Source of the DNA: Capnocytophaga periodontitidis | Lineage (GTDB): Bacteria; Bacteroidota; Bacteroidia; Flavobacteriales; Flavobacteriaceae | DNA length: 64,000 bases | Assembly (NCBI RefSeq): GCF_016126015.1 | Contig: NZ_JAEFDB010000001.1 | Coordinates: 744,001 to 808,000, forward strand | Reading direction: 5' to 3' | Part shown: in pieces, positions 22,710-26,936 of the stretch | Numbering within the stretch: the stretch's first letter is position 1 | Layout: each line of letters starts with the position of its first letter | The notes under the pieces: model-generated | Told to the model about the DNA's origin: nothing | The model's database searches: none | The model's input: only the letters and a program-made list of their open reading frames with translations | Position numbers and translations under genes: made by a program

Positions 22710-22767
22710 CGTTTTTCTTATTGCGTGACTACAAAAGTAGTATATTCTGTTTGATTAAGCAAATTAT

Positions 22768-22798
22768 TTGTGTAATTATGTGCATTTTGTTACCTTTG
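22768..22798 (+). promoter_or_regulatory. Promoter of the nucleic-acid repair operon
   Basis: TTG at 22768-22770, a 20-base spacer, TACCTTTG at 22791-22798, 15 bases before the ligase ATG at 22814. The element is a strong match to the housekeeping consensus, so constitutive expression is expected rather than an SOS-type or Rtc-type control. Confidence 0.75.
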
Positions 22799-22813: not shown

Positions 22814-23998
22814 ATGGAAGATAAAACACTTATAAAAAAACGTATTGATTGGTTTTGCAAGAACAAAATCAATGCTTTTTCGCCGACTATTTCACCAGCT
22901 CCTAAATCAGTAGGGCGCAATGAAATTGAAAGTCTTTATGAGGGCTTGCGATGGTTCTTTGACAGAGACATCAAAGAGATTTTAATACAGAAGAAATATA
23001 TGGGTTCTTATTGTGATATTTACTTACATAAGAACTTAGAAGATAGTTATTTAGTAAGCCGAAATGGTTATAAAATCAATCATTTAGACCGTTCACAATG
23101 GGTGCCAGCGCTCACTCAGTTGCACGCTAAGTTCAGCTGGGATAATACGACTATTCGCATTATCCAATCGGAATTGATGCCGTGGTCGGCTTTAGGTAAA
23201 GGACTTATTACGAATGAGTTTTCGGCTTATTACATCTCTCATCAAATACATTGCGACTACTTGCAACAGAGCGACTTGTATGAAAAAATAAACGCTATTA
23301 GGGAAAAGCCTGAATACCTTGCTTTTGTGGCTGACGCCAAAGTACTCTCGGGCAAAGAACTGAAAGATAAATACCCTACCCACATCATTCGTCAATACCA
23401 ATCGATACGCGATATGAAGCTACTCGATTTGCCTCACTATGAGAAGAATATTGCTCTGTTTAAAAGACAATTGGACATCTTTGGCAAAGACGCAACTGTT
23501 TACTTCAAACCTTTTAATATTTTAAAGGAAATCTACGACGACGGGACTGAACATTTTGTGAATGACAACCTCAGTTTTGCACGTATTAACAGTGATGAAT
23601 TTTTGCACTACACTTTTACGGATACCGCTGACTTTGAAGCCAAATACCCCGAAATACGCGCTTGGGTAGACCGAATGAACGCCAATGACGAAGAGGGGGT
23701 AGTTATCAAGCCTCGTAAGGCTTTTATGCAAGGCATACCGCCTGCTTTCAAAGTGCGCAACAACGATTACCTCACACTCATTTACGGGGTGGATTTTCAA
23801 GACCGATTAGAAGAACAAATCGCTAAACGCAATATAAAAGGTAAGCTGAAATGTTCTATCAACGATTGGGCTATCAATGCCAAACTTTTGCAAACGCCTT
23901 ATAATGAAATTCACGAGGAGAATTACGAATTTAAAAACTTAGTACTCGACCGCATTTTAGGGGAAGAGGTAGAAAATCAATTAGACAGCAGACTATGA
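22814..23998 (+). CDS. Pnkp-type polynucleotide (RNA) ligase
   Basis: A 394-residue covalent nucleotidyltransferase. Motif I is K61-Y-M-G-S, where K61 would take AMP; this form (K-x-M-G-S) is that of the ligase domain of bacterial Pnkp rather than the KxDG of T4 Rnl1. Supporting motifs are SRNG (82-85), ELMPWS (120-125), EGVVIKP (294-300) and FKVRNNDYLTLIYG (312-325). In classic Pnkp the ligase is fused behind a kinase and a metallophosphatase; here it stands alone, and the kinase/phosphatase is a separate gene starting in its stop codon (ATGA). Together they could heal and seal broken RNA, for example tRNA cut by ribotoxins. The substrate is inferred. Confidence 0.88.
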   Translation: MEDKTLIKKRIDWFCKNKINAFSPTISPAPKSVGRNEIESLYEGLRWFFDRDIKEILIQKKYMGSYCDIYLHKNLEDSYLVSRNGYKINHLDRSQWVPALTQLHAKFSWDNTTIRIIQSELMPWSALGKGLITNEFSAYYISHQIHCDYLQQSDLYEKINAIREKPEYLAFVADAKVLSGKELKDKYPTHIIRQYQSIRDMKLLDLPHYEKNIALFKRQLDIFGKDATVYFKPFNILKEIYDDGTEHFVNDNLSFARINSDEFLHYTFTDTADFEAKYPEIRAWVDRMNANDEEGVVIKPRKAFMQGIPPAFKVRNNDYLTLIYGVDFQDRLEEQIAKRNIKGKLKCSINDWAINAKLLQTPYNEIHEENYEFKNLVLDRILGEEVENQLDSRL

Positions 23999-24906
23999 GT
24001 AAACTTCTTATATTGGTGGGTGCCCCGGGGTCGGGTAAATCTACCTTTGCACGTTATTTTTTACGTACCGAAGACAATTGGATACGCGTGAATCGCGATG
24101 ACTTTCGCTTGATGCAGTTTGGTGATTCACTAATGATTCCGTTCTATGAAGAGCGCATTAGCAAAATGGTAGAAGCCTCGGTGCTCACCTTGTTAAAAAG
24201 CGATACCAATGTGATTATCGATGCTACAAACACATCGTTGCGCACTATTCAGGATATGATTCACACTTATACTGAATACGCTGATATCAGTTTTAAAGTA
24301 TTTGATTTACCTGTAAACGAATTAGTAAAACGCTGCGATAAACGCTATGAAGAAACAGGAAAATTCATATCTAAAAGTGTGGTAGAGAGAAATGTGGCTA
24401 ACCTAAAGCACACTCTCGAAAAATTTGATTTTGCTCCTATTCCTCGCAAAGTACAAGTGGCAACTACCAGCTATGCTACTCAAGATAAGAACCTACCTAA
24501 GGCTGTGATTTGCGATTTAGATGGTACTCTTTCCTTGCTCAATGGTCGTGATCCTTACAACGCGGCGACTTGTGATAACGACTTACTGAACGAACCTGTA
24601 GCTGCTGCTTTGAAAATGGCTAAACAACAAGGTTATCAAGTGATTTTGCTCTCGGGGCGCGAAGATAAATTCCGCGAACCTACAGTGCGTTTTCTCGATA
24701 AACACCAAATAGGTTACGACTTACTGCTGATGCGCACCTCTAACGATTTTCGCAAAGATAACATCATTAAAAGGGAACTTTTTGAGGGAGAAATACAAGG
24801 AAAATACTTTGTAGAATTTCTTTTAGATGACCGCAATCAAGTGGTAGATATGTGGCGTAAGGATTTGCATTTACCTTGCTTTCAAGTGAATTACGGGGAT
24901 TTTTAA
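23995..24906 (+). CDS. Polynucleotide 5'-kinase/3'-phosphatase, T4 Pnkp type
   Basis: A 303-residue end-healing enzyme, collinear with phage T4 Pnkp (about 301 residues). The N-terminal kinase has the P-loop G9-A-P-G-S-G-K-S and NRDD (33-36). A linker leads to a HAD-type phosphatase with D174-L-D-G-T, NGRDPY (183-188), SGRE (220-223) and DDR (278-280), ending in GDF as in T4 Pnkp. It would phosphorylate 5'-OH ends and remove 3' or 2',3'-cyclic phosphates, giving ends suitable for the ligase encoded just upstream with a 4-base overlap. The domain order differs from clostridial-type Pnkp, whose phosphatase is a metallophosphoesterase. DNA repair instead of RNA repair is possible. Confidence 0.93.
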   Translation: MSKLLILVGAPGSGKSTFARYFLRTEDNWIRVNRDDFRLMQFGDSLMIPFYEERISKMVEASVLTLLKSDTNVIIDATNTSLRTIQDMIHTYTEYADISFKVFDLPVNELVKRCDKRYEETGKFISKSVVERNVANLKHTLEKFDFAPIPRKVQVATTSYATQDKNLPKAVICDLDGTLSLLNGRDPYNAATCDNDLLNEPVAAALKMAKQQGYQVILLSGREDKFREPTVRFLDKHQIGYDLLLMRTSNDFRKDNIIKRELFEGEIQGKYFVEFLLDDRNQVVDMWRKDLHLPCFQVNYGDF

Positions 24907-25340
24907 GTTGATTATTTTTTGGGAGAATCGCAGAGAAACTCGGAGAATCGCAGGGTTTTTGGACAAGGTCAGACAAGGCGGACGGGGCGGACGAGGCAGA
25001 CGTGAGTTTGATGTAAGTAATTATTTAACAATCAGTAAAATATTTTAATCTCCCACGAATTACACGAATTTTCACAAAATAGGGAGTGTATAAAAGTCTT
25101 TATTTTTTATTATCTCACGAATTTTCACCTGACGGTGAATTATTTTGTGAATATATTATGTTAAAAAACTGTAAATCAATATTCTGTTACATCGAACTCA
25201 CGTTAATTAATAGCTATTTTATTCATTATCCTATTTTTATTTTGGAGGAATATGTAGAAAGAAGAAAAAGGTAAAGTTTTAGAAATAAAACTTTACCTTT
25301 TATATTTTGAGAAGATATTAGTAACAATACTCTAGAAAAA
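24907..25340. other. Intergenic region with decayed purine-rich repeats and short inverted repeats
   Basis: No convincing gene. Bases 24920-25010 hold a purine-rich patch (agaatcgcag... followed by chained gacaagg/gacgggg/gacgagg units) related to patches at 29400-29560, 39480-39720 and 46920-47030. Bases 25060-25150 contain ACGAATTTTCAC twice and the small hairpin TTCACC-TGAC-GGTGAA. A strong terminator lies at 25266-25301. Confidence 0.6.
25266..25301. terminator. Strong bidirectional terminator
   Basis: A perfect 15-bp stem (AAAAGGTAAAGTTTT at 25266-25280 with its inverse at 25287-25301) around the 6-base loop AGAAAT. A and T runs on either side allow function in both directions. It ends the minus-strand collagen-like lipoprotein gene. 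Confidence 0.9.
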
Positions 25341-26936
25341 TTATGGTTTAGCTTTTATTATTTTTGCATAGGAACTCCAACTTGGTGATTTTTTATATAT
25401 TTCTACACTCTCGGCAGGTACATAAATTGTTTTTAAGGTATTGTCAAATGTTTTAGAACTATATCCTTCATTCAACATAGGAGGAACTTTTGCATTTATT
25501 GTAAGGCTCTCTAATTTTAAACAATTTTTAAAAGCTTCCCTTCCTATATTATTCAGACTACTTGATAAAGTTAAAGAGGTCAATTCAAAACAACCTGCAA
25601 AAGCTTCAGAACCAATTGTTTTAACACTATTTGGAATAACAATTGTTTTTAAAGATTTACAACCAATAAATGCTCGTTCTTCTATATATTTTAAATTATT
25701 AGATAAAACAATAGAAACAAGAGACTCGCAACCTGCAAAAGCTTGTATCCCTATAGTTCTCACTTTATTAGGTATTGTAATAGATGATAAAGATTTACAA
25801 CCATAAAAGGTTTGCATTTTAATAACTTTGATTTCGTTAGATAAAGTCATAGATGTTAAAGATAAACATCTATTAAAAGCATTTTCACCAATACTTGTTA
25901 CACTATTAGGTATTGTAATAGAAGTTAGAGCTTTACAATTACTAAAAGCTTCAATACCTATTTTTATAACAGTATTAGGAATTGTAATAGTTGGTAAATA
26001 GTTACAACCAAGAAAGGCTCTATCACCGATTGTTGTTATGTTATTGTCATTTAAAAATGTAAATGATTTAAAACGACAGCCTCTAAAAGCACCTTCGCCT
26101 ATATGAATTACATTGCTCCACTCTTCATCATAATCATTCATATCTAATTCTTCTAAATGATTATATTTCCACTCTAATAATGTGCGACCATCTCCACTAA
26201 GTTTATATTTATCAGTTTCTATTGGATTAGAAGGTGTAGGGTTTGTATTATCATTGTTTCCTAAAACTATATAAGAAGTTCCCCAACCACTATTTGATTT
26301 AGGTCCATAAAGGCGCTTGTTTTGGGTGTCAATATACCAATCTCCTACTTTACCTATATTAGTAGGAGTTCCTACTCCTGCAAATATTTTAGTTCCATCT
26401 TGCCCTGCAACACCTTGTTCTCCTTTATCGCCTTTTTGTCCAGAGTCACCTTTGTCGCCCTTATCACCTTTGTCGCCTTTTTGACCTGTAGCTCCAGTAT
26501 CTCCTTTGTCGCCTTTCTCTCCTTTTTGTCCTGCTGCTCCAGTATCTCCTTTATCTCCCTTTTGTCCAGCATTTTGAGTATCTCCTTTGTCTCCCTTTTC
26601 TCCTTTGTCTCCCTTTTCTCCTTTGTCACCTTTCTCTCCTTTTTGTCCTGCTGCTCCAGTATCTCCCTTATCTCCTTTATCACCTTGTATTCCTTTTAAA
26701 CTAATAGGAGTTCCCCAACCTTGTGCTGTTTTAGCACCATAAAGATTGGTATTAGAGAGATCAAGGTAGTAATCTCCTATGTTACCAAGATTTTCAGAAG
26801 GAGCTCCTATGCCAGAAAGAATTTGGTTACCTTTCTGTACTTCTACTCTTTCAATAATTTTTTCAGTTTCTTTTCTACAACTGCTAACAGTCAATGCAGC
26901 TAGCATCGCTACTGTTATAAAAATAAAATACTTCAT
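25341..26936 (-). CDS. Lipoprotein with collagen-like region and BspA-type leucine-rich repeats
   Basis: A 531-residue probable surface protein. A signal peptide ends in LTVSSC (Cys near 20). A module of the form GNIGDYYLDLSNTNLYG (about 51-67) leads into some 30 Gly-X-Y triplets dominated by GDK, GEK and GQK (about 82-183), with one break at TQNAG. A second GDWYIDTQNKRLYG module follows, then nine repeats of about 23 residues of the LRR_5 type, each with AFxxCxxLxSxTIPNSVxxI (about 275-500). BspA-like repeats in oral Bacteroidota bind host matrix or partner bacteria, so adhesion is the likely role. A paralogue lies at 51157-52836. The triplet region is repetitive at DNA level and may vary in length. 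Confidence 0.88.
   Translation of the reverse strand: MKYFIFITVAMLAALTVSSCRKETEKIIERVEVQKGNQILSGIGAPSENLGNIGDYYLDLSNTNLYGAKTAQGWGTPISLKGIQGDKGDKGDTGAAGQKGEKGDKGEKGDKGEKGDKGDTQNAGQKGDKGDTGAAGQKGEKGDKGDTGATGQKGDKGDKGDKGDSGQKGDKGEQGVAGQDGTKIFAGVGTPTNIGKVGDWYIDTQNKRLYGPKSNSGWGTSYIVLGNNDNTNPTPSNPIETDKYKLSGDGRTLLEWKYNHLEELDMNDYDEEWSNVIHIGEGAFRGCRFKSFTFLNDNNITTIGDRAFLGCNYLPTITIPNTVIKIGIEAFSNCKALTSITIPNSVTSIGENAFNRCLSLTSMTLSNEIKVIKMQTFYGCKSLSSITIPNKVRTIGIQAFAGCESLVSIVLSNNLKYIEERAFIGCKSLKTIVIPNSVKTIGSEAFAGCFELTSLTLSSSLNNIGREAFKNCLKLESLTINAKVPPMLNEGYSSKTFDNTLKTIYVPAESVEIYKKSPSWSSYAKIIKAKP

Follow-up and report, generated by a model that had tools for sequence, protein, structure and literature searches.

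Two overlapping genes in the 64 kb stretch of DNA analysed here (the window) almost certainly encode the Rnl and Pnkp1 proteins of the Pnkp1-Rnl-Hen1 RNA repair system; the gene for the third protein, Hen1, lies elsewhere in the genome on a separate contig, and on the strength of the sequences the function would be the same as in Capnocytophaga gingivalis. This identity rests on near-full-length matches to crystallised proteins, on the conservation of motifs and contact residues, and on the co-occurrence of Rnl with Hen1; no evidence against the identity of Rnl or Pnkp1 was found. The gene pair is real and its earlier reading at the domain level is correct, and the system to which it belongs is already known.

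The Pnkp1-Rnl-Hen1 system was described in 2015 (Nat Commun 6:6876; PMC4411300), in the work that is the source of structures 4XRP and 4XRU. The C. gingivalis operon consists of genes for a Pnkp-type ligase and a homologue of T4 Pnkp, and the system is called a T4/Pnkp-Hen1 hybrid; the two genes are co-translated, rnl first, and hen1 was distant from the operon in the ten species then known (PMC4411300). The C. gingivalis proteins were shown to form a heterohexamer, and their reactions and structure were established, the activation of Rnl by the N-terminal domain of Hen1 being presumed (PMC4411300). In vitro, efficient repair of tRNA cut by colicin D required all three proteins; SAM made ligation at least tenfold faster, and roughly half of the repaired molecules were estimated to carry a 2'-O-methyl group at the joint (PMC4411300). 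The sequence-only reading of the window had presented the mixture of two designs as a departure from known ones; as PMC4411300 describes this very hybrid, its central idea was already in print.

Identity of the rnl-pnkp1 gene pair

Rnl matched the Rnl chains of 4XRP and 4XRU over its full length of 394 residues (best match 4xru_B, E 3.9e-218) and was 79.2% identical, over 394 residues, to Rnl of C. gingivalis ATCC 33624 (locus L035). It exceeded the cut-off of Pfam PNKP_ligase (E 4.7e-19) and contains the motifs K61-Y-M-G and, at 120, ELMPW; the residues named as contacting Pnkp1 are all identical (4/4; PMC4411300). No T4 Rnl1 chain was present among its 15 PDB matches up to E 1. A GST_C match on residues 234-291 (Pfam E 5e-05, 23.9 bits, cut-off 20.7) was treated as spurious, because it lies inside the span of the PNKP_ligase and crystallised Rnl matches.

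Residues 2-303 of Pnkp1 matched Pnkp1 of 4XRP and 4XRU (4xrp_A, E 5.6e-164), and residues 1-303 matched both T4 Pnkp (1ltq_A, E 2.3e-38) and PHROG 505, polynucleotide kinase (E 8.1e-79); identity to Pnkp1 of the same C. gingivalis locus was 79.5% over 303 aligned residues. Pfam gave AAA_33 (E 9.6e-16) and then HAD_PNKP (E 5.4e-48), and the protein has a P-loop at 9, DLDGT at 174 and the C-terminal end GDF. The named contact residues are identical (4/4), as are 12 of the 14 named dimer-core residues, the other two being changed from V to I and from V to A (PMC4411300). The window's genome contains a single match to Rnl and a single match to Pnkp1. The sole PADLOC match, mad8 on Pnkp1 (E 2.2e-05), was not accepted as membership of a defence system.

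These profile searches and PDB matches confirm that the pair combines a Pnkp-type ligase with a T4-Pnkp-type kinase/phosphatase, as the sequence-only reading had claimed from the ligase motifs and from the collinearity of the partner with T4 Pnkp. The overlap that it reported between the two genes was also found: the ORFs, both on the + strand, share 4 bases. Its housekeeping promoter corresponds to a match to TTTG-N20-TACCTTTG, which we take to be the Bacteroidota housekeeping promoter consensus, 15 bases 5' of the rnl start codon; as a pattern match, it is a candidate promoter (Table 1). The window contains five occurrences of the TTTG-N18-21-TACCTTTG pattern on the + strand and nine on the - strand, compared with a mean of 1.3 and a maximum of 4 for the + strand in 30 first-order Markov simulations; the pattern also precedes hen1. 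Sigma-70 consensus promoters were not in excess around the operon (7, compared with a shuffle mean of 8.3).

On its 3' side the operon faces a convergent BspA-like gene, and a 16-pair inverted repeat that is terminator-like on both strands lies between this gene and pnkp1. The product of this adjoining gene, 531 aa long, has repeats of the collagen type and leucine-rich repeats of the BspA type, and its start looks lipoprotein-like when judged by eye.

Table 1. Coordinates of the gene pair, its surroundings and related loci.
Feature	Position	Strand	Description
rnl	22814-23998	+	394 aa; RNA ligase of the Pnkp1-Rnl-Hen1 complex; motif I lysine K61
pnkp1	23995-24906	+	303 aa; 5'-kinase / 3'-phosphatase, T4 Pnkp type
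TTTG-N20-TACCTTTG match	22767-22798	+	candidate promoter of rnl
promoter pattern before hen1	L001 645-676
inverted repeat	25266-25301		between pnkp1 and the BspA-like gene
BspA-like gene	25341-26936	-	531 aa
Hen1-Pnkp1 fusion	L071:6155-8335		vB_VpaM_sm033; 726 aa; Hen1_N, methyltransferase, P-loop kinase, HAD_PNKP
Hen1-Pnkp1 fusion	L072:6119-8272		RYC; 717 aa; Hen1_N, methyltransferase, P-loop kinase, HAD_PNKP
adjacent Hen1 + Rnl	L070:3685-6191		Xanthomonas phage XacN1
adjacent Hen1 + Rnl	L073:3665-6281		Stenotrophomonas phage RAS14
plasmid methyltransferase and 862 aa protein	L074:1292-5167		Paenibacillus thiaminolyticus
plasmid methyltransferase and 850 aa protein	L075:1381-5173		Enterococcus raffinosus

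Comparison with known systems

RNA repair systems were reportedly surveyed by Burroughs and Aravind in 2016. The system studied here shares with that of C. gingivalis all three proteins at near-equal lengths, the rnl-pnkp1 order, the 4-base overlap, a hen1 gene that lies apart and the named contact residues; nothing of substance differs, identities being 73-79% and Pnkp1 being nine residues shorter at the N terminus. Bacterial Pnkp-Hen1 (NCBIfam TIGR04075 / TIGR04074) has a distantly related ligase domain and Hen1, but its kinase, phosphatase and ligase form one protein (model length 851), and the phosphatases of the two systems are from different superfamilies (PMC4411300). Against the TIGR04075 equivalog model the window's pair scored 55.9 and 30.5 bits, the cut-off being 750, which places it outside that family. 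As for phage T4, which has Pnkp with Rnl1, Pnkp1 can be aligned with T4 Pnkp over its entire length, whereas the window's ligase is of the Pnkp type and not Rnl1; in addition, Pnkp1-Rnl-Hen1 adds a methylation step to the three T4 activities (PMC4411300). Ligase type, the adjoining T4 Pnkp-type partner, the divergent Hen1 in the genome and the interface residues all place the pair in Pnkp1-Rnl-Hen1, a putative cluster of which is also named in the Borg paper (PMC11208441).

Hen1 and the proposed function

The hen1 gene is on contig C44 of the window's genome, separate from rnl-pnkp1, and encodes a protein of 437 aa. Residues 1-435 matched Hen1 of 4XRP (E 5.8e-223), Pfam Hen1_N, the presumed ligase-activating N-terminal domain, was detected (E 1.3e-59), and identity to the Hen1 of a C. 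gingivalis genome (G007) was 72.7%. It is the 4XRP and Hen1_N matches, and not the curated model, that identify the protein: the NCBIfam Hen1 model gave one partial match in the genome (62.6 bits, cut-off 340), and it also matches 7 of 14 control genomes, one of them over the cut-off, and is thus little proof alone. What we take to be the catalytic motifs are present in Rnl, Pnkp1 and Hen1.

The sequence-only reading had stated that no Hen1 or Rtc gene was nearby. For Hen1 this is correct in the 64 kb window, where tblastn with the genome's own Hen1 gave a best match of only E 0.89 and no gene or clear remnant, and it does not hold for the genome, the position of hen1 on another contig explaining its apparent lack. 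The statement on Rtc stands, as RtcB matches were confined to another contig (C33, in a frame of 485 aa). Taken by itself, the absence of a Hen1 gene or remnant from the window would favour a new two-protein repair system working without Hen1. This was rejected because a Hen1 of the same subfamily is encoded in the window's genome; furthermore, full-length Rnl without Hen1 was observed in none of the nine Rnl-bearing genomes of the genus and none of the eight relatives outside it, and in vitro repair by the C. gingivalis proteins needed all three (PMC4411300). We therefore hold a Hen1-free system to be highly improbable.

T4 Pnkp-type enzymes act on the ends of DNA as well as RNA, and Rnl has a weak Pfam match to DNA_ligase_A_M (E 0.034, under the cut-off); both observations would suit a DNA repair or nucleotide-salvage pair, with Pnkp1 healing the ends of DNA and Rnl closing nicks. 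However, the family that Rnl matches best is a ligase domain from an enzyme of RNA repair, a 79%-identical relative repairs tRNA (PMC4411300), and the pair co-occurs with an RNA methyltransferase, which leaves very little probability for a role in DNA.

By analogy with the C. gingivalis proteins, the likely role of Pnkp1-Rnl-Hen1 is to mend RNA that a ribotoxin has cut, leaving a 2'-O-methyl group as protection at the joint; the RNA repair role proposed earlier is judged right. Pnkp1, Rnl and Hen1 would most likely form a heterohexamer. Once a ribotoxin had cut tRNA or another RNA, Pnkp1 would phosphorylate the 5'-OH and strip the phosphate from the other end, Hen1 would methylate the 2'-OH at the dephosphorylated end, and Rnl, presumably activated by the N-terminal domain of Hen1, would seal the break. 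The mended joint would then resist the same toxin.

Distribution and gene order

Rnl was found in 9 of 20 genomes of the genus (the window's own included) and Hen1 in the same nine, the other 11 having neither. The adjacency of rnl and pnkp1, on which the sequence-only reading depended, was conserved in all nine and in all eight outside relatives with full-length Rnl; at the nine loci of the genus, the Pnkp1 frame overlaps the end of rnl. In four genomes (G005, G006, G015 and G019) Hen1 ends 3 to 11 bases before rnl, and in the other five (the window's own, G007, G012, G013 and G018) it lies apart: on another contig in four of them, whereas in G013 it shares a contig with rnl at a distance of 1.2 Mb. 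The location of hen1 far away from the operon, as worded in the available text of PMC4411300, thus fails for four Capnocytophaga genomes, including two that their coordinates identify as C. cynodegmi and C. felis.

The Rnl alignment matched 6 of 299 genomes of the family sample at E 0.001 or better: three matches were full-length (the window's own, G005 and G145), and three were weak and partial, in frames of 860 to 870 aa, as a standard Pnkp would give. In the phylum sample, which overlaps the family sample, 8 of 395 genomes matched; the five full-length matches were the window's own genome and four genomes of g127, another genus of the same family, and the best of each of the three weak ones lay in frames of 731 to 868 aa. 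Further g127 genomes had no Rnl match, so the system is patchy in this genus too. A pattern scan of genome contigs, not exhaustive since the g127 genomes were not listed by it, gave 10 loci: six in Capnocytophaga, including C. sputigena (98%), C. gingivalis, C. cynodegmi and C. felis, and four in MAGs labelled Tannerella, Dysgonamonadaceae, Prevotellaceae and Bacteroidetes, labels that may be wrong.

Hen1 and Pnkp1 were sought in 15 chosen genomes (the 10 non-Capnocytophaga sample matches, the four MAGs and G339, a g127 genome without Rnl), the search for Hen1 being confined to these and the 20 genomes of the genus rather than the whole family and phylum samples. Full-length Hen1 and Pnkp1 were present in all eight outside genomes with full-length Rnl, in each case in the order hen1-rnl-pnkp1. 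In the six genomes with weak Rnl matches, Hen1 was matched in part, over its methyltransferase half (51 to 68 bits), and four of the six also gave a weak Pnkp1 match; neither protein was found in G339. The system extends beyond a few Capnocytophaga, and its distribution is wider than in the 2015 text as available (PMC4411300). That hen1 lies next to rnl in all eight relatives found outside the genus is further reason to regard the three proteins as a single functional unit.

Trees were made for the 17 full-length Rnl proteins (nine from the genus, four from g127 and four from MAGs) and for Hen1 of the same genomes; both were midpoint-rooted and gave a long-branch warning for the Bacteroidetes MAG. 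The five genomes with a distant hen1 grouped together in the Rnl tree (97/94) and weakly in the Hen1 tree (70/59). Together with the adjacency of hen1 in the eight outside relatives, this grouping makes it most likely that the three genes began as one operon, which hen1 later left in the distant-hen1 clade; its separate position is probably the derived state. The gene may have moved more than once, since its new neighbours vary between the five genomes.

Relatives in phages and on plasmids

When 50,697 phage records were searched with Rnl by tblastn, five records were obtained at E 0.01 or better, and Hen1 gave the same five; the loci of four were examined (CM1 was left out). Vibrio phages vB_VpaM_sm033 (320 kb) and RYC (158 kb) have an Rnl-type gene followed by a Hen1-Pnkp1 fusion (Table 1), and from their domains these loci appear to be the Pnkp1-Rnl-Hen1 set in two genes. 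The fusion is an addition to the known system; it was not found in the literature searched on the system, a search that did not include the phages by name. In XacN1 and RAS14, Hen1 and Rnl are adjacent, and no Pnkp1 match was obtained up to E 1 within the 11 kb stretch examined. In XacN1, ORF197 has been named PNKP and ORF198 a Hen1 homologue (PMC5852040); for ORF197, Pfam gives only ligase domains. A scan of viral contigs with Rnl alignment patterns gave 81 pattern stretches, none of them a relative; the patterns were from Capnocytophaga only and would miss distant phage relatives.

On balance, we lean slightly towards the following picture. The three-gene operon hen1-rnl-pnkp1 would be the ancestral arrangement of Bacteroidota; within Capnocytophaga, a single clade (the window's species together with C. 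sputigena, C. gingivalis, oral taxon 863 and a fifth member) would have moved hen1, uncoupling the supply of the presumed ligase activator; the wider family, present in large phages, with Hen1 and Pnkp1 sometimes one protein, may answer tRNA-cutting host defences.

Plasmids of Paenibacillus thiaminolyticus and Enterococcus raffinosus carry a Hen1-matching methyltransferase gene followed by a gene for a protein of 862 or 850 aa, respectively. The C-terminal part of these proteins resembles Rnl across 98% of its length (36% and 29%, respectively), with E-values far better than those of Pnkp matches on plasmids of other genera.
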